From: a virus
Direction: 5' to 3' (one strand)
DNA length: 21,722 nucleotides
Virus record (IMG/VR): IMGVR_UViG_3300047480_001156
Location: 1 to 21,722 of that record
The notes below the pieces were generated by a model. The model worked only from the letters and a program-made list of their open reading frames with translations. It had not been told where the DNA came from and did no database searches. Below are positions 1 to 19,814 of this stretch, in pieces. Within the stretch, counting starts at the first letter, position 1; the number at the start of each line of letters is the position of its first letter. The position numbers and the translations under genes were made by a program.

Positions 1-591
1 ATACCAACCTGTTATGATGTATTTAGTTTCTTTCAACGGTGGATTTCCTCTGTGAGCATGAGTAAATGCAGCAGGCCAAATAACTACAGTTCCAGTTGTA
101 GGAACAACTCTTTTGTGCTGATATAAAAATTCCGTCTCTCCACCATCTTCTATGTCATTCAAGTAAATAATCCAAGCTAAGCATCTGGTGCAGTGCTGAA
201 AAGAATTATTTTCTCCGTGCCAAACATGATATCCGCCGCCAGGATCGGTTTTTTGTACTTTAACTGTATATGAAACCAATGGTTGATCTTTGATTATATG
301 ATATTCATCACAATAATCTTGAACACATGCAGTTAAATATTGATTTATTTCCCTGGTCAGATCATTATCAATTTCTTGTAAATTTATTGAATAATCAGAT
401 CTTCCAAGTTTTCCATTAGGGAACTGAAAATTGCCACTATATCCTCCATCATTTTTTTCATATTCTTGGTGAATATTAATTACTCGATTACATACACTAG
501 GAGGAACGAATTTTTCCCAAGTTCCAATAAAATCCTCAAATTTACCGTCCATCAATTCTAGTGGACGAATAGGTATTGCATTAGTTTCCAT
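1..591 (-). CDS. 2OG-Fe(II) oxygenase, prolyl-4-hydroxylase-like (3' end outside window)
   Basis: The reading frame is open from ATG at 591 to the window edge, giving 197 residues with no stop. Translation shows a double-stranded beta-helix dioxygenase signature: GGGYHVWHGE (residues 118-127) with a candidate iron-binding H125-x-E127, a GGETEF turn (150-155), then IWPAAFTHAHRG (171-182) with the distal histidine at 178 or 180, and a basic residue near KETKY (187-191) suited to binding the 2-oxoglutarate carboxylate. The family uses Fe(II), O2 and 2-oxoglutarate to hydroxylate proline or other side chains. The acidic iron ligand is Glu rather than the usual Asp. The start lies 13 bases after the stop of the preceding collar gene, with only a weak GAG purine stretch upstream, so it is probably the last visible gene of the fibre transcript. 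The substrate is unknown; a fibre protein is one guess. The fold call is fairly secure, the specificity is not. Confidence 0.85.
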   Translation of the reverse strand, partial: METNAIPIRPLELMDGKFEDFIGTWEKFVPPSVCNRVINIHQEYEKNDGGYSGNFQFPNGKLGRSDYSINLQEIDNDLTREINQYLTACVQDYCDEYHIIKDQPLVSYTVKVQKTDPGGGYHVWHGENNSFQHCTRCLAWIIYLNDIEDGGETEFLYQHKRVVPTTGTVVIWPAAFTHAHRGNPPLKETKYIITGWY

Positions 592-2513: not shown

Positions 2514-5500
2514 CTATTGTGCTTTGATAATATAATGAAGAGTAATATATGCAGTCAATGGATCTACAGTCATAGTTGCAACATCATTAATTGTACTTGT
2601 TGCAATTGAAACACCAGTAGATGAAATTGAAGTAGTAGTTCCTGGAGCTGTCATAGTAACTCCAGTAAGTGAAACTGTTCTTGTGAATGATCCTCCATGA
2701 TTATGTGGTTGTCCGTTATCGATCGGAGAACTTTGTGATCCACTCATGAAATAACCTCTAATTGCACCAGCAACTCCCTCGCAACAACCACTAATTCCAT
2801 TACAGTTTTGGCAGTTTGATCTACATCCATTTGCAGTACAATTTCCACCTCTACATGTTACAGAATTAGAATTGTTTGCATAATACTGTGCAGCATTTTG
2901 CACACTGTGAGAGTGAGCAATAAATTCATCCTGCCCAAAAGCTCTACCAATAATATTTACGGTTACTGATGGACTAGTTCTTGTTACTGTTCCACCAGAA
3001 CGTGTTCCCGAAATATTTGTAACTCCTGTATGGGTCCAAGTTGCATCACAATTTGCAGTGATAGCAGTATCATATGTAGATGGAGACGATGTAACAGCAC
3101 CACCAGGAGCATTCAAATACTTCGCTCTCAGATCAGGAACTCCAAAAGTTTTACTGCTACTTTCGTATGGGAATGTATCAGAAGATGTTACAGTTCCACC
3201 GTGAGTGTTGAGCAATACTTGTGCTAATCTTGGATATGTAGATGCTGCATATGTAGATCCATTACACAAGAGCCATCCTTCAGGAGGAGTATCTTCTCCC
3301 CAGACAACAATTGTTCCAACATCCAAATTATTCAATCCATTCACGCTATGGTAATATTTTGGAGAAGATGTAAATACTGTTCCTGGAGGTAAAATCGATA
3401 AAGTTGCTGGAGGATCTGAAGTGGTAGTTACAGTTCCACTAGGATAATTAGGAGTGCTTACTCTTACTCGGTACTTGTAATTATTTTGTGTAGCAATGAT
3501 GCTAGACAATGATAAATTCTGAGATGTTGCACCACTAATATTGAAGAAGTCACTATCTGCTGTTCCTCCAGTTGATTCTTGCCACTGATAACTAACCGTA
3601 GCACCATTATTTGCAACTGCTGTTGATTCAAATACTAAAGGATTTGCACTGGTTACTTCAGCAACTGTTTTTGCTGCACTTACTGGTAGAGTTGTAAATG
3701 AAATTGAAATAGGATTTACAGTAAGTTTTGCTTGATTGCTATAACTTACTACAGTTAATGACCCGTTTCCATATACTGCAGTGACTTTACATCTATAGAC
3801 ATAGTTGTTCCATCCAGACTGAGCAGTGAATGATAGAGAATTTGTAAGTGCTCCGCTCGTAAATGTCGCAGAATTTCCGATATCTGTAAATAGTCCATCT
3901 GCTAATGGACTGGTTGGAGACCAACTGGATGTTGCGGCAATTGTACTCTTTTGCCACGAGAATTGTAAATCCTCAGCATTTGTCGCAGATGCGCTAACAC
4001 TAAAACTACCAGACTGCCCAACAACGACTGCGGTATTTGTTGGTTGTCCAGATATTGTTATTACTGGAACTGGATAGATGAGAATATTAACTCTTACAAC
4101 AGGAGAGTAAACTGTTGCTGCACCTGGAGATGTAAGAACAACTTGATAGTATGCATCATCACCTGTTAATGGACCAGTAGCAGTAACTCCATTCAATGTT
4201 AGTGTTGGAGATTGAGCTCCTGTACCACCGCCAGAAACAGTCCAAGAACCATTCTGAGCAATCGTAGTAATTGCAGGATCAATATTCGTCACATACCAGT
4301 GAATAAATCTTCCGTTTGGATTTGTAGGAGAAACTGGTGCAGATGCATCCAAGTCTTCCACTAAAATCTCAAACTTAGTAACACTAGATGCAGAAAATCC
4401 TGATAGTGTCCAACTAATCGTAGGACTATCACCTGGAGAAGCAGATGTAGATCCATATTGCGATGGAATATCACCACCAAAAGACCAATATGGACTACTT
4501 ACGGTAATAGTTCTTCCCAGTCCAGCAGTATCTGTAGTTAATCCTGTTGGTATGGTTGGCGTTAACTTTGTTCCACTGCCAAAGTATCCATAGTAATAAC
4601 CAGTTACAGTTCCATTATTTGTAAAAGCTTTAATTCTAAACTGATAGAGATGCTTTTCTCCAGCGGGAGGATTGGGTCCATTCCATCCGTTTGATCTATC
4701 TGCAGGTGATCCCGCGAAAGATGTTTGGTAAATGGTTGCAACAATACCAGAAGCAGTAGAGTTTGCAATATTTTGCCAGGATGAACTACTGTTGTTTGTC
4801 GAAGCTGCTACATCATATGTCTTTCTCCATTGATAAGCAACTGCCCCAGGACCAGTAACACTTGCAATAACACTTAATGTGTTATTGGTAGAAATTGTAA
4901 ACGATTGAGGTGATGTAGTAATATCACTGATGAAAATTTGCGGAGCATTAACAGTAAGAATTGCAATCTGACTGTTAATCGGTGAAATTCCCGCTGCAGA
5001 TAATCTAACTCTATATTTAAAGTTATTTTGTGCTGCCGTAATGTTTGTTAAAGTGAGACCAGCATTGGTAGATCCAACTAAATCTTGGAAACCATTACCA
5101 TCATTCTGATCAACTTGCCACTGATACTGTATAGTAGCACCATTTGATGCAATTGCAATAACATCAATAGTCGTGCTTTCTCCTACTGTAACAACTGGGC
5201 TAGTTACGTTCTGAGTTATGCTAATTGTAGAAGCATTGACAGCAAGTTGAGCAACTTGTGAAATAGTTACTGGAGCACCAGATGCAGTAAGAACGCAACG
5301 GTAGTTATAACCAGAGAATTGTGTTGTTACACTAGATACAGTTAATGTAGTGGTTCCCTGTCCAGAATATGTACTATCATTAGTAATAGTAGACCAATTT
5401 GTACCACCATCAATTGATACTTCCCAAGAATAGTTAATTGTTACTGGAGAAGTAGCAGCAATTGTAAATGTAGCATTAGTTCCAGAGAATACGTTAGCTG

Positions 5501-8459
5501 CCTGAGGTTCTTGAGTAATAGTTAGAGCATTAGCACTAATAGTTCCCGAAATTGTACCAGAAATTGCTGGTTTTGCGTTTTCTTTCGCATCGGTAACAAT
5601 ACATCTAAAGTAATAATTTACACTCGTTACATTCGCAGGGAATACAGCACTGTTAAGTCTTAATGTATTTGTAGTTCCTGTTTTAACTATAGACGTAGTT
5701 CCATCTGGATTATTTACTTGAAGTAATTGCCAATCAAGTTCTAAAGTTTCTCCCCATTGTTCTTCGGTTGGAGGAGAAAATCCTTCAAAATATTGCCATC
5801 TGTAGCGAATATCTGCAGATGGTACAGTTGTAGTAACTCCAAGTGGGAAGAATAGTTCAGATCCCAGCAATCCACTTTGATTTGGAGGAGTTTGTAGTGT
5901 AAATGTAGGAGCATCTGCTTCAGACGCTCTCAATTCATTCCAAATCAATGTAGAAATTGTTGACCCTAGACTTGGAAGAGGATGATACTTATCTGTTGTG
6001 ACTAAACTATTCTGTAATGTAACAACATCACCTACATTATCATGTACTAGTTTTGTGAGATTTAAAAATCCTGTATCCTTATATCCAGCTGCCCAACGTG
6101 CATCTGCAACTTCTTTCATTGCTGCAGCTACTTGATCCATATTAGCAGCATCGTATGCATATGTCGTAGTTGAATATGCACTCGCCTGGAATGTAATATC
6201 AGCGTTTTGTCTAGTAAAATCAGTTGCCTCGTTTGTCAAATCTGCCGTTAATGGCTGTGACAATGTTACAATATTACCAGAAATACTCGTGATTGTAGTA
6301 TTTGGTTGAATGCCAGTTCCAGACTGTGTTACCACCGACATTCCATTACTCAATCCATTCGTGTTGTTAACTTCAATGGTATTAGTAAGTAGAATTCCTG
6401 TGGCATTTTTAGTTTCCGTTGTAGAAATATTAGCAGTTAATGGTTGACTGATATTTACTGTGTTTCCAGAAATACTGTTGACTACAGTTCCATTTGCTAC
6501 TCCATTTCCACTAACACTCATTCCCTGAGTTAAGTTCGTGGTGTTATTTACAGTAATTGCAGTAGATCCAGCAGTTCCACTTCCAATCTTTGTTTCATTA
6601 ACTGCAGGGAAATTATTGATAACTGGATTAGGATCTCTAATTTGATATGGAGAAACCAATACAATTTTCAGAAAATCTGCACTTGGAGCAAGAACAGTTC
6701 CTTCTGAAGTTACTGTCTGGAAAGTTGTATTCCAAGCAGAAGCAATTTTATTAACTAAAGTTTCTAAATTTGTTTTAATTTGTGCTTTAGATCTTCCATT
6801 GATGACATCCTGAGCACCCAAACAAATGAATACTGTATTCCAACCAAAAACTTCAAAGTAAGAATTAAATGCAGATTGAGTAATCTGAGAATATTCCTGA
6901 ATTGAAAGATTATCTCTTCCAATTCCATGAAGGATATTACCCTTCATTTGGTTTCCAGTAAATACTCTGTTTAATGTATTTCGATCCGAATAAATTTGGA
7001 CATGAGACAATCCAAATGTATCTTTTTCAGAGAACGAAATTGTTTTTGTGAATGATATGCTAGCAGCACTGAGAGAACCAGTGATAACTTTATCCAATTC
7101 CAGAGTGAAATAATCTTGTGGACTGCCAGTAAAATCAAGATTTGCATTTGCAAACGTAGAAATACCTACAAGTGTGGTTGCTGATGGAATATTAGTTCCA
7201 GAGACTTCAAGACCTGTGAATAATCCATCAGTGTTTCCAGTAAATACCAGACTTCCACCCGTTAAAGTAGCAGTTGCAGTTGCTGTAGTTCCAGTATTAT
7301 TTGGAGGAGCGATAGTTATTGTTGGAGCACTAGTGTAACCACTACCAGGATTATTGACAGAAAATCCAATAACAGTTTGACTTTCTGGGTCAATAATTGC
7401 AGTGACTTGTGCAGTCAATCCACCAGAAACTTGTGGGGCACTTACAGTAACTGCAGGAGTTGTAGTATATCCTAGTCCAGCATTTGATACCAGAACATTT
7501 GCTACGGATTTACCACCAGCAGCATATACAGTTTTATTAATGTTAATGGAAGATGGTAACTGTACAACAGATCCAAAATCATCTACAGATCCATCGTCAA
7601 TTACAGCTCCACGAACATCTCGGAAGGAATATAACTGCCATCCATTAGATGTAGTATTGATGTTATATGAATCACCAGTGGAATATACACCAGCATTATT
7701 TAAATTCTTAACTTTGTAGCTACCTGTAGCAAATGGAAGTAGTCTATCATTTCTATGCAAGAATATTCCAGTAGTCAAGGTTTTTGCTGCTGGATTAGAT
7801 GTAGTAACAGTACCAGTAAGTTGATTAGTTGGTGTAGATAGTAGCGTAGAAACTGGACTATATCCTACACCTGTGTACTGTCCAAAAACTCTAGGAGCTT
7901 TGAAGATTGTAACATCATTTGAAAAACTATAAGTAGTTGCTGTCGATGGAGGAACGAGAGCAACATAATCACACATGTGAGCAAATCCACTACCGAATGG
8001 ATGGTTACTCAGTGTATTAGTAACGTTAGGATCTACTGGTTGATTAGGATCAATGTAACCACTATTAGTTGCAACCTGGAAAGTTCTTGTAGTATATCCA
8101 GTGAGAGTAGTTGATAAAGATGGTACTTCAATATCAACACCTATTCTTGATGCAGCATCAAGTGCAGCATTCTGAAAGGTTGTTTGAGGATTACTACCAG
8201 GAATTATACTTGTGCTAGTATCTTTAATATTCAGCAAATAGTTTGCAGATACACCAGCACCAACCAAAAATGAATTGGCATGTGCATTAAAATTCCAGTT
8301 AACAAAGTTATATGAGAAAAATCCTCCATAAGGACGATATAAAATACCGTCCCCAATGAATAAAATTCTGTTGTAAAAATAATTCGGAAGTTGATATCTA
8401 ATTTTTAAAAACGCAGGATGTAAATTTACCCTGGTTTGCGATGGTCCAGTATATGCCAT
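2514..8459 (-). CDS. giant mosaic tail fibre: SGNH-like domain, Ig-like array, PEBP-like module, collar tip (1981 aa)
   Basis: Domains in order: an SGNH/GDSL-hydrolase-like domain spread over about residues 30-845, with block I as RILFIGDGIL (31-40), a block II-like GAGVSANYLL (67-76), block III-like LGAQD (547-551) and an intact DKYHP (823-827). It is interrupted by GxGYT-type repeats (about 318-400) and two tandem 60-residue beta repeats (625-745). Six or so Ig-like domains follow (about 850-1690) with recurring YQW and KYRVR strands, enclosing a PEBP-like module (about 1250-1445). A tail-collar domain (1713-1790) precedes the tip, which has HSH (1849-1851), seven cysteines (1869-1893) and HNH (1919-1921). 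It ends in LTAYITLHYIIKAQ. The nucleophile position is Gly38 instead of Ser, so esterase activity is doubtful. A GGAGG site inside the last codons of the upstream gene supports ATG at 8459. Likely role: long host-recognition fibre. Confidence 0.88.
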   Translation of the reverse strand: MAYTGPSQTRVNLHPAFLKIRYQLPNYFYNRILFIGDGILYRPYGGFFSYNFVNWNFNAHANSFLVGAGVSANYLLNIKDTSTSIIPGSNPQTTFQNAALDAASRIGVDIEVPSLSTTLTGYTTRTFQVATNSGYIDPNQPVDPNVTNTLSNHPFGSGFAHMCDYVALVPPSTATTYSFSNDVTIFKAPRVFGQYTGVGYSPVSTLLSTPTNQLTGTVTTSNPAAKTLTTGIFLHRNDRLLPFATGSYKVKNLNNAGVYSTGDSYNINTTSNGWQLYSFRDVRGAVIDDGSVDDFGSVVQLPSSININKTVYAAGGKSVANVLVSNAGLGYTTTPAVTVSAPQVSGGLTAQVTAIIDPESQTVIGFSVNNPGSGYTSAPTITIAPPNNTGTTATATATLTGGSLVFTGNTDGLFTGLEVSGTNIPSATTLVGISTFANANLDFTGSPQDYFTLELDKVITGSLSAASISFTKTISFSEKDTFGLSHVQIYSDRNTLNRVFTGNQMKGNILHGIGRDNLSIQEYSQITQSAFNSYFEVFGWNTVFICLGAQDVINGRSKAQIKTNLETLVNKIASAWNTTFQTVTSEGTVLAPSADFLKIVLVSPYQIRDPNPVINNFPAVNETKIGSGTAGSTAITVNNTTNLTQGMSVSGNGVANGTVVNSISGNTVNISQPLTANISTTETKNATGILLTNTIEVNNTNGLSNGMSVVTQSGTGIQPNTTITSISGNIVTLSQPLTADLTNEATDFTRQNADITFQASAYSTTTYAYDAANMDQVAAAMKEVADARWAAGYKDTGFLNLTKLVHDNVGDVVTLQNSLVTTDKYHPLPSLGSTISTLIWNELRASEADAPTFTLQTPPNQSGLLGSELFFPLGVTTTVPSADIRYRWQYFEGFSPPTEEQWGETLELDWQLLQVNNPDGTTSIVKTGTTNTLRLNSAVFPANVTSVNYYFRCIVTDAKENAKPAISGTISGTISANALTITQEPQAANVFSGTNATFTIAATSPVTINYSWEVSIDGGTNWSTITNDSTYSGQGTTTLTVSSVTTQFSGYNYRCVLTASGAPVTISQVAQLAVNASTISITQNVTSPVVTVGESTTIDVIAIASNGATIQYQWQVDQNDGNGFQDLVGSTNAGLTLTNITAAQNNFKYRVRLSAAGISPINSQIAILTVNAPQIFISDITTSPQSFTISTNNTLSVIASVTGPGAVAYQWRKTYDVAASTNNSSSSWQNIANSTASGIVATIYQTSFAGSPADRSNGWNGPNPPAGEKHLYQFRIKAFTNNGTVTGYYYGYFGSGTKLTPTIPTGLTTDTAGLGRTITVSSPYWSFGGDIPSQYGSTSASPGDSPTISWTLSGFSASSVTKFEILVEDLDASAPVSPTNPNGRFIHWYVTNIDPAITTIAQNGSWTVSGGGTGAQSPTLTLNGVTATGPLTGDDAYYQVVLTSPGAATVYSPVVRVNILIYPVPVITISGQPTNTAVVVGQSGSFSVSASATNAEDLQFSWQKSTIAATSSWSPTSPLADGLFTDIGNSATFTSGALTNSLSFTAQSGWNNYVYRCKVTAVYGNGSLTVVSYSNQAKLTVNPISISFTTLPVSAAKTVAEVTSANPLVFESTAVANNGATVSYQWQESTGGTADSDFFNISGATSQNLSLSSIIATQNNYKYRVRVSTPNYPSGTVTTTSDPPATLSILPPGTVFTSSPKYYHSVNGLNNLDVGTIVVWGEDTPPEGWLLCNGSTYAASTYPRLAQVLLNTHGGTVTSSDTFPYESSSKTFGVPDLRAKYLNAPGGAVTSSPSTYDTAITANCDATWTHTGVTNISGTRSGGTVTRTSPSVTVNIIGRAFGQDEFIAHSHSVQNAAQYYANNSNSVTCRGGNCTANGCRSNCQNCNGISGCCEGVAGAIRGYFMSGSQSSPIDNGQPHNHGGSFTRTVSLTGVTMTAPGTTTSISSTGVSIATSTINDVATMTVDPLTAYITLHYIIKAQ
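6225..6587 (-). repeat. tandem ~60-residue beta repeats inside the SGNH-like domain
   Basis: These bases encode residues 625-745 of the 1981-residue fibre. Two adjacent units share the order T-x-I-x-V-N-N-T, L-x-x-G-M-S-V, T-x-I/V-x-S-I-S-G-N, then SQPLTA. A more divergent third relative lies at about residues 397-480. They are inserted between the block III and block V regions of the SGNH-like domain, so they look like surface insertions. Confidence 0.7.
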
Positions 8460-16736: not shown

Positions 16737-19700
16737 TCAAGGGCAATCAACGTATTTAGCGGCGGGAGCAGTCCTTGCTTTTTCAGTAATTACAACGCCA
16801 GTTTCCTCTCTAGGAACACAACTTAACTGACCAATTGCTCTTGCTCCAGAACCAGCATTTTCATCAATGATTTGAATTGCTGGAATAGTATCGTAATCAA
16901 ATGTATCATCAATAACTTCGATACCAGTTATATATCCGTTTTCAACAATTGCTGTAGCAACTTTTGAATTTCCATCAACATAAACTTTCGGATTGGTATA
17001 TTTTGCTCCAGGATTTAAAACTTCAATTCCAGTTAATTTACAATAATATGCTTCATCTTTTTGAATGTCTCCTTTATAAGAAAGACCAGGATCTAATACT
17101 TGAATTTCAACTAGTCTCCCTCTGTTATCTAAAACAGGTTTAACTGTTGCTCCATATCCATCTCCCTCGATTAAGGCAACTGGAGCACGATCATATGTAA
17201 CATCACCTGGAGTAACAGGAATGTTAATAATTCTTCCAAAAACATCGGTTATGATTTTAGCAGAAGGTGGAATTGGAGTAGAAAAACTAGTTCTGGGAGG
17301 AACTACAGTTTGTAAAGTAGTTGCGGGTGCTTTAATTATAACGCTTGTTGAAACTCCAGTAGCAACCAAAGTGAACACTAAAGTTTCATCTGCTTCCAAA
17401 TCATTTCCATCAGATGAAATAGTAATAGGAACAACTGCTTGGTTATTATTAATTGTTACTAGTCCCGATAGTGCTCCTCCAAGAATATCATCTGATGTAA
17501 TATTTGTTCCAGAAATACTGTAAGAAAATACTGTTCCATCAGGAATGTTTGTTGTATAAACATTTACATCAAAACTTTCTCCTTCCACAACACTCTGTTT
17601 ACTTGGAACTAGAGCATAAGTTGGGGTTGTGTTTATTGGAGTAACTGGAGCGGGAACACTATTTCCAACGTCAGTAATAGGAACACTTCTTGTTACATTA
17701 ATTCCATTGGGAAGGTTAACTAAAGTAACCGTAATATATTCATTTTCGGATAGTGTATCTGAAGCAATTACGAATGGAATAGTTGCCGAATTATTGCTAA
17801 TGGTAACGGTTCCACTGAAACTAGAGAGACCGACTACATCTGCTAAGTTGTCAATTCCACTAACTTGATAGTTTATATTAGTACCATCAGGTACGTTAGT
17901 TGTGATAACACTAAAAGTAACAGCATCTCCTTCGGCAACTGCAGTTTTATCAGCGAACAAACTATAAGAAGATGCTGAAGCTGCTGCCGCTAGAGCAGGA
18001 CTTACTGGAATTACTGGAGTAATTACTGATGATCCACTAGGAGTAGTTGCTGGACTAAACGCTTGGATATTGATAACCCCATCACTATTGTCAACTACAC
18101 CGTAAGAATCATTAGAAGTAATTCTAACATATAGTTGTTCTTGACTGCTAGTTCCATTTGCTAAAGTTTGCACTGAAATATTTTTGCTAGTTTCTCCAAC
18201 AGAAAATCCCAAAGTTCCGTTTGTTGGAGTATAGTCTCCTCCAGTGGAAGATGCAGTGCCATCAGCAGTTGTATATTGAAGAGAGGAAATATTTTCATAT
18301 ATTCCAGGTCCATAACGAGTAACAGTAAGAGTAGCGAGATCTCCTTCAGTTACTGTAACACTATTAATAGAATACCTAACTTCTTGCGAAGTTGTAGGAG
18401 TTCCAATAAGCGTCAGTGATGTTCCTGCTGTCGCTGGATCAGTTATAGGATTTGTATAAGCTTCATCACAAAACGCTGTTGGCGTCGCTTGCGGATTTGA
18501 AGACAACGAATTTATAATTGAATCTAAAGTATCATATCCTGGAGGTTGCTTTTCTTTCTTAGATTTAAATGGATCTAAACAAATTGCTTCATACTCATCA
18601 CATGCTTCTGCACCTGGATCTGTACAAGATATGCCTAATAGTTGCAATCCAGCACTAAAGGCTGCTTGCAGAGGATCTAATCCAGCATTCAATCCAGATA
18701 AAATAGATGAAGTAAATGATAATACTTCTGTTGTTATTTGTGATGTAAGTCCAGAAAGAAATCCAAGAATACTATTAACTATATTGTTAATAGCACAAAT
18801 TGCTGGGTTTAAAATCTGATCTAATAAATCACGAACAAGTCCTTGCAAATAATCTGTAAGTTGTTCCTGCAAAGACATCATCGAACAACCAACAGAATCT
18901 AAGAGTTGGTCAAAGGTCTTTACCAAACCTTTTAATACTCCTGTCTTTGGATTGAGAAGTAAATCTACTAAATCTTTAATCCCAGCATCAATCTTTGCAT
19001 ATAAGTAACCAAATACCGAACTGAATGCAAGATTTATAACGGAAGAAATCTTATCAATATATCCAGTTGCAATTGCAGCAGTATCATAAATTTTGTTTGT
19101 AATTGGACTTAACAATCTATCACCAGCTGGTTGTCCACTTGAAACTGCATAGAACAACTGCTTTAATTGATAAGTTAATGTTCTTTTCAGTTTATCTTCT
19201 GGTTTACAATCACTAGCTAATTCTTGGCAACGTGCTAATCCAGCATCATTACCACCTAAACTCCACGGAGCTTTACATACTCCACTCATGAATGGAGTTA
19301 GTCTTTCGTCTCTACTTGTTTTATCTTGTTTATTTCCTGGCGTTCTTCCCTTTGGAGCAGGTTGCTCATCTGCATATTGATGTTTATGTGGTAGTGAGTT
19401 TGGGGAAAGAAATGTGTTAAATTCTAGTTCAGTTTGGTCTGGGTTTTGATTATTTTTTAAATCTTCCGTTTGAGAAAGTGCAGTCCTGTTAACAGATCCA
19501 ATAACCAAAGGTTGCTGCATCTCATCATCATCTAGATAAAATCCAACTACCCAATCTCCTTCTTGCAATGCACAAGTTGAAGATCCACCACCAACACTCT
19601 GTTCTACATTGGTTGGTGTCAATACATGAGCGTAAGGAAGATCAACAGTTTTAAGTTTAGAAGCAGACGCTGGATGTCTTCCAACAATTCTAACCTTTAC

Positions 19701-19814
19701 TCTGTTAGAAGCTTTACCATCTTTGTCTGCTGGCTGCTCAACTTGACCAATCCACCACTTAAAACCATCGTTTCCGATGTTATGTGTCTTACCAAAGAAA
19801 CTAGTATCTAACAT
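16737..19814 (-). CDS. 5: baseplate hub protein with gp5-type OB-fold, lysozyme domain absent (1025 aa)
   Basis: Residues 18-110 match the gp5/VgrG OB-fold: FKWWIGQVE, RVKVRIVGRHP (38-48), LPYAHVLTP (59-67), GDWVVGFYLDDDEMQQPLVIGSVN (86-109). In T4 this domain packs on gp27. No T4-lysozyme motif follows. Instead, residues about 210-400 are hydrophobic and helix-forming (ILNPAICAINNIVNSILGFL, 334-353), bounded by Cys-containing segments. Three Calx-beta-like domains come next (about 480-586, 617-715, 733-828), each with a (V/A)EG(D/E) strand start and acidic ends such as ENEYITVTL. The C-terminus (850-1000) has VLNPGAKYTNPKVYV-type repeats. ATG at 19814 is five bases after the CP12 stop and has no strong ribosome site, so coupling to CP12 translation is likely. 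T4 gp5 is 575 residues, so this protein is much longer despite lacking both the lysozyme and the spike parts. Confidence 0.82.
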   Translation of the reverse strand: MLDTSFFGKTHNIGNDGFKWWIGQVEQPADKDGKASNRVKVRIVGRHPASASKLKTVDLPYAHVLTPTNVEQSVGGGSSTCALQEGDWVVGFYLDDDEMQQPLVIGSVNRTALSQTEDLKNNQNPDQTELEFNTFLSPNSLPHKHQYADEQPAPKGRTPGNKQDKTSRDERLTPFMSGVCKAPWSLGGNDAGLARCQELASDCKPEDKLKRTLTYQLKQLFYAVSSGQPAGDRLLSPITNKIYDTAAIATGYIDKISSVINLAFSSVFGYLYAKIDAGIKDLVDLLLNPKTGVLKGLVKTFDQLLDSVGCSMMSLQEQLTDYLQGLVRDLLDQILNPAICAINNIVNSILGFLSGLTSQITTEVLSFTSSILSGLNAGLDPLQAAFSAGLQLLGISCTDPGAEACDEYEAICLDPFKSKKEKQPPGYDTLDSIINSLSSNPQATPTAFCDEAYTNPITDPATAGTSLTLIGTPTTSQEVRYSINSVTVTEGDLATLTVTRYGPGIYENISSLQYTTADGTASSTGGDYTPTNGTLGFSVGETSKNISVQTLANGTSSQEQLYVRITSNDSYGVVDNSDGVINIQAFSPATTPSGSSVITPVIPVSPALAAAASASSYSLFADKTAVAEGDAVTFSVITTNVPDGTNINYQVSGIDNLADVVGLSSFSGTVTISNNSATIPFVIASDTLSENEYITVTLVNLPNGINVTRSVPITDVGNSVPAPVTPINTTPTYALVPSKQSVVEGESFDVNVYTTNIPDGTVFSYSISGTNITSDDILGGALSGLVTINNNQAVVPITISSDGNDLEADETLVFTLVATGVSTSVIIKAPATTLQTVVPPRTSFSTPIPPSAKIITDVFGRIINIPVTPGDVTYDRAPVALIEGDGYGATVKPVLDNRGRLVEIQVLDPGLSYKGDIQKDEAYYCKLTGIEVLNPGAKYTNPKVYVDGNSKVATAIVENGYITGIEVIDDTFDYDTIPAIQIIDENAGSGARAIGQLSCVPREETGVVITEKARTAPAAKYVDCP

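Follow-up and report, generated by a model that had tools for sequence, protein, structure and literature searches.

The sequence studied here (the window) is a 21.7-kb contig of a marine T4-like phage, positions 1-21,722 of IMGVR_UViG_3300047480_001156. It encodes parts of the baseplate and tail fibres, with every one of these genes on the minus strand. When compared with PHROGs, its genes group with T4-like families of the baseplate hub, the tail and the short tail fibre, and the closest isolated relatives of one baseplate gene are those of marine cyanomyoviruses (∼34% identity). Window positions 16737-19814 encode a baseplate hub or tail lysozyme-like protein with a Calx-beta domain (residues 486-567; PF03160, E=1.5e-9), after which similar-looking stretches come, and a 2OG-Fe(II) oxygenase (PF13640; window 1-591) adjoins the fibre genes. 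One of the latter encodes P0001, a fibre of 1981 aa that consists of an N-terminal part, an Ig-like array, an apparently interrupted Ig-like repeat holding a PEBP domain, two further Ig repeats and a C-terminal Collar domain. Gene context and this Collar/Ig architecture suggest that P0001 may act as a receptor-binding protein. Besides, residues 1-870 (window 5850-8459) contain, in order, the motifs FIGDG, GRDN, LGAQD and KYHPL, which resemble those of SGNH/GDSL hydrolases, with the nucleophile serine replaced by glycine. Searches for an SGNH hydrolase in this N-terminal part gave no significant match, the only hit being Pfam OSK, which we take to be an SGNH-like family, at E=0.18. The features of the fibre are as follows:

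2514-8459, minus strand: P0001, fibre of 1981 aa (open reading frame; Pfam Collar, PBP and Ig_3; PHROGs)
4941-5849, minus strand: three uninterrupted Ig-like repeats upstream of the PEBP domain, residues 871-1173 (Pfam Ig_3 and I-set; repeat profile)
4767-4940, minus strand: residues 1174-1231, forming the first half of a probably interrupted Ig-like repeat (8.2 bits over positions 6-58 of the Ig profile)
4224-4766, minus strand: PEBP domain, very probably circularly permuted, about residues 1232-1412 (PF01161 on rotated versus natural sequence; rotation scan; phrog_5139 in two stretches)
4611-4733, minus strand: residues 1243-1283, GWNGPNPPAGEKHLYQF, the C-terminal PEBP half that comes first in the chain (PF01161 positions 70-102; bacterial-PEBP profile positions 96-131)
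4515-4610, minus strand: residues 1284-1315, a putative linker of ∼32 residues that would connect the former C-terminus with the former N-terminus (plateau of the rotation scan)
4245-4514, minus strand: N-terminal half of the PEBP, placed second, residues 1316-1405, with GGDIPSQYG, SPTISW, EDLDA and IHWYV (PF01161 positions 2-64; bacterial-PEBP profile positions 11-92)
4074-4244, minus strand: residues 1406-1462, which contain TGPLTGDDAYYQVVL and form the second half of the probably interrupted Ig-like repeat (2.4 bits over positions 53-99 of the Ig profile)
3384-4073, minus strand: two uninterrupted Ig-like repeats downstream of the PEBP domain, residues 1463-1692 (repeat profile)
3123-3317, minus strand: Phage Tail Collar domain, residues 1715-1779 (PF07484, E=3.5e-14)

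The initial annotation had placed a PEBP module at 4125-4712, that is, at about residues 1250-1445 of P0001, and all motifs that it quoted are present on the minus strand (GWNGPNPP at residue 1258, HLYQF at 1270, GGDIPS at 1328, EDLDA at 1368, IHWYV at 1386 and TGPLTGDD at 1428). Searched against the whole fibre, the PEBP family profile PF01161 matched with E=2.6e-12 and 47.7 bits in two stretches, which exceeds the curated cut-off of 24 bits and is far above chance. By themselves, residues 1300-1405 scored 33.6 bits over profile positions 2-64, and residues 1232-1300 scored 18.8 bits over positions 70-102. The two halves are thus complementary and their order is reversed: the N half does not precede the C half, either in P0001 or in a sibling fibre, L003, encoded on a separate contig. 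An independent profile, built from 24 ordinary PEBPs of gammaproteobacterial genomes, gave the same arrangement, with its positions 96-131 falling on residues 1243-1279 and its positions 11-92 on residues 1316-1405, and phrog_5139, a PEBP family, likewise matched P0001 in two stretches.

Rotating the sequence restored a continuous match. PF01161 scored 60.7 bits on the rotated sequence, as one match over positions 2-102, versus 35.5 bits on the natural one; the bacterial profile rose from 30.8 to 49.7 bits; and a profile made of normal-order fibre PEBPs only gave 64.4 bits after rotation versus 31.5 and 24.1 bits for the halves apart. In the rotation scan with the bacterial profile, any cut from residue 1283 to 1316 restored the full match, and it is this plateau near 49.7 bits that sets the limits of the linker. 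Among the controls, the N half joined to a shuffled C half reached at most 39.3 bits (n=200) and the N half joined to other pieces of the fibre at most 34.2 bits (n=167), while the composition-shuffled segment did not exceed 4.2 bits with the PEBP profile. Reversed order is not a common state, since all 36 PEBP matches in 31 gammaproteobacterial genomes were single stretches in normal order.

Of the two readings that the initial annotation had left side by side, only the permuted one was borne out, by profile rotation, by the complementary profile ranges, by the sibling virus and by normal-order relatives in phage fibres. The other held that the PEBP is in normal order, with TGPLTGDDAYYQVVL as its degenerate C-terminal part and GWNGPNPPAGEKHLYQF as a look-alike Ig strand. 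While the natural-order Pfam match does run over the TGPLTGDDAYYQVVL stretch up to profile position 97, including this downstream flank raised the score from 33.6 to 35.5 bits only (+1.9), whereas the upstream motif scores 18.8 bits to PF01161 on its own, aligns with the fibre PEBPs and adds about 25 bits when rotated. Moreover, the TGPLTGDDAYYQVVL stretch fits the Ig repeats instead, and the region downstream contains no C-half match when scored alone. We hence reject the look-alike assignment and regard a normal-order domain as hardly tenable.

Two separate partial copies in tandem, the first lacking its start and the second its end, would be the expected intermediate of permutation by duplication, and each half might pair with a half from another fibre chain, an arrangement that the sequence alone would allow. 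Yet the profile ranges covered by the two halves meet almost without overlapping, and neither a second N half upstream (0.1 bits) nor a second C half downstream (-2.1 bits) left a trace, so that both variants appear very unlikely. An assembly error is likewise an unlikely cause of the reversed order, because L003 shows the same order on a different contig. Taken together, the swapped complementary halves, their fusion into one match upon rotation and the existence of unpermuted relatives make it very probable that the PEBP domain of P0001 is circularly permuted. The known permuted copies are two only, P0001 and L003, and they are close relatives of each other: they share the entire architecture and are 91.5% identical in amino acids over the fibre and 93.7% over the PEBP domain. 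The dN/dS ratio of the domain between the two is 0.05, among the lowest of the fibre segments measured, and the permuted domain is under purifying selection.

The surroundings of the domain were examined with an Ig profile for which the remaining Ig repeats in P0001 and L003 had served as training set. Residues 1180-1236 fell on profile positions 6-58 and residues 1410-1459 on positions 53-99, each weakly when taken alone, and joining the two flanks without the PEBP gave one Ig match of 23.6 bits over positions 6-99. The flanks hence behave as complementary halves of a repeat, though a weak one when set against the 90-117 bits of its neighbours, on which the profile had been trained. Since the flanks join into one match, the PEBP most likely occupies a loop of a single diverged Ig-like repeat, a nesting that we consider probable but less certain than the permutation. 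The earlier placement of the module inside the Ig array therefore stands and can be sharpened to one repeat within it. A search for direct repeats marking the insertion revealed only short ones, none of them at the domain edges.

Structure prediction gave models of the region that fold with moderate confidence. For residues 1170-1470, AlphaFold2 returned a mean pLDDT of 53, with the blocks of the PEBP core at about 57-87 and the Ig flanks below 50; for residues 1225-1415, pLDDT was 72.9 and pTM 0.75, and the model placed strands at the motif-bearing HLYQFRIKAF, SVTKFEILVEDLDA and RFIHWYVTNI. Foldseek, whose alignments follow the order of the chain, placed three PEBPs third to fifth for the 301-residue model, without significance (top probabilities of the list 0.54-0.75, E >0.5), and returned no PEBPs among the top 50 for the 1225-1415 core model. 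The latter outcome is expected of an order-dependent aligner faced with a permuted fold.

Five polar residues are near-invariant in PEBPs, namely D71, D73, H87, H118 and R119 in FT numbering (PMC8793217). Alignment with the bacterial-PEBP profile assigned their counterparts, all of them identical in L003, as follows:

4644-4652, minus strand: His1270-Leu1271-Tyr1272; the His corresponds to FT His118, with Leu at the family Arg119
4353-4355, minus strand: Asp1369, corresponding to FT Asp71 and human Asp70 (pocket rim)
4347-4349, minus strand: Asp1371, corresponding to FT Asp73
4299-4301, minus strand: His1387, corresponding to FT His87 (pocket rim)

Both permuted copies thus hold four of the five (D1369, D1371, H1387 and H1270), R119 being replaced by L1271, and Tyr1272 is kept as well. 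Of the pocket equivalents named initially, His1387, His1270 and Tyr1272 agree with this alignment, whereas Asp1371 turned out to be the second aspartate and Asp1369 the one at the rim; the leucine at the family arginine, next to the second histidine, had not been mentioned.

A scan for a degenerate PEBP motif, together with follow-up searches, recovered a PEBP in normal order from another fibre of 11 contigs (L004, L007, L010, L011, L013, L014, L021, L036, L064, L116 and L076). The fibres that contain these PEBPs are of the collar type and very long, the largest reaching 2975 aa, and come from uncultured marine T4-like phages. Ten are virus contigs and the eleventh, L076 (PAPD01000060.1), is a phage-like contig that had been assigned to a MAG of a gammaproteobacterium; its fibre cluster is either misbinned or hints at the host of this phage group. 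Among the relatives whose whole records were tested, all were above the Pfam cut-off except L021, in which that Pfam search found no PEBP match. In L076, the Collar profile scored 24.6 bits (positions 10-39) on the intact sequence and 30.5 bits (positions 10-55) once the PEBP insert was taken out; by these scores, the PEBP interrupts the Collar domain. In L116, the PEBP gene cluster has as its neighbour a gene homologous (E=6e-15) to P0002, which also encodes a fibre and lies upstream of P0001. In a tree, the two permuted and 10 normal-order fibre sequences separated from cellular PEBPs with a branch support of 97/98, to be read with caution given the long branches. The searches also yielded L012, a 188-kb virus contig, probably from a large DNA virus, on which a free-standing PEBP shows the DPDAP/HW/HRY signature in clean form.

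Most of the normal-order fibre relatives lack the equivalents of Asp73 and Arg119 and often that of His87: by eye, the five positions read D,A,H,H,T in L076, D,S,N,H,I in L004 and N,S,Q,H,L in L036. The permuted copies therefore have the least degraded pocket of the fibre group. Given the losses in most of the relatives, the PEBP module may not need its pocket.

We propose, with a probability of roughly 60%, that P0001 carries a permuted YbhB-like PEBP in an Ig loop, derived from a normal-order fibre module and serving as a side-mounted pocket for a small polar or anionic group of the host surface. The starting point would most likely have been a normal-order PEBP that related marine T4-like phages were already using in their collar-type fibres. 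Its old ends would have been joined through the ∼32-residue linker and new ends opened in the loop that connects the HW strand with the GxxGPxPPxGxxHxY motif; insertion in a loop of one Ig-like repeat would bring these new ends near each other and let the domain stick out to the side of the Ig shaft. The main contact with the host would be made by the Collar-bearing tip or by other fibres, and the PEBP pocket, most likely binding a sugar, a sugar-phosphate or a head group, would add weak binding to the adhesion of the fibre. An adhesin module binding phosphate or lipid heads, as first suggested, would be plausible, and we lean slightly towards a ligand-binding role for the putative pocket.

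The main rival, since the relatives lose the pocket, is a purely structural role, in which a genuine permuted PEBP fold would decorate or stiffen the fibre as a spacer without ligand. The residue losses in the normal-order fibres speak for this, as does the loss of the arginine in P0001 itself. Multiple replacements of the five residues are otherwise confined to L35/L38, whose function has changed, and to one plant group (PMC8793217), and these PEBP-like mitochondrial ribosomal proteins L35/L38 keep the fold after loss of the pocket. However, P0001 and L003 have identical Asp1369, Asp1371, His1387, His1270 and Tyr1272, and the low dN/dS of their domain also sits poorly with a mere spacer. We therefore consider the structural role unlikely, albeit a serious competitor. 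Less probable still is an enzyme acting on a cell-surface glycan or nucleotide-sugar group, by analogy with the enzyme proposal for YbhB/FT. The five-residue polar set has been argued to be typical of enzymes, and P0001 still has two His and two Asp residues from the proposed catalytic set; yet the family has no established activity (PMC8793217), the arginine is replaced and most of the set is missing from the fibre relatives.

Returning to the side-mounted binding pocket, the data suggest that phages reuse the PEBP fold as a surface-binding module. In a broader scenario, which we advance tentatively and rate short of even odds, marine T4-like phages might have adopted PEBP as an exchangeable receptor-binding module that one lineage permuted so as to fit it into an Ig loop without losing a working pocket. 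If true, this would provide a circular permutation that arose naturally within the PEBP superfamily as well as a new class of phage adhesin module. PEBP proteins occur in bacteria, plants and animals and in all domains of life, and their basic molecular function is disputed. A permuted, virion-borne PEBP with most of its pocket kept would represent a natural experiment that separates the needs of the fold from those of the pocket. For phage biology, it would add another fold to the adhesins and illustrate how modules are slotted into Ig and Collar domains.

Among 50,697 isolated phage records, a recognisable PEBP was present in 7 only (E<=0.01), those annotated by name being host-type (e.g. 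ybcL, ybhB), and neither the PEBP domain of P0001 nor the fibre domain of L004 found a match there. No fibre PEBP emerged from these isolates, and relaxing the threshold up to E=1 gave host-type ybcL/ybhB or other free-standing PEBPs only. None of the papers searched described a whole PEBP domain interrupting an Ig repeat, and searches of an open-access library, which leaves most subscription journals outside, brought up no article that links PEBP to phage tail fibres, cyanophages or circular permutation.

Compared with the PEBP/YbhB family (PF01161; E. coli YbhB, PDB 1fjj and 1vi3; PDB 3n08 and 2evv), the domain of P0001 shares both signature halves and the pocket Asp, Asp, His and His followed by Tyr, but it has the halves reversed and Leu in place of Arg, resides in a virion fibre, and contains no detectable C-terminal helix region. 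The normal-order PEBPs of the 11 contigs are its closest sequence relatives, likewise located in fibres and with a similar tail past the last strand, yet they differ in their order, in being set in a Collar domain (tested for L076) rather than an Ig repeat, and in a mostly lost pocket. Phage-carried host PEBP genes (phrog_5139; ybcL/ybhB in coliphages, e.g. PhiR34_1) belong to the same family, but they are free-standing, host-type and in normal order, while phage Ig-like and Collar fibres (Pfam Ig_3, PF07484) correspond to the scaffold of P0001. Thus, the PEBP family, the Ig scaffold and the process of permutation are each known, and it is their combination that is new as far as we have checked.
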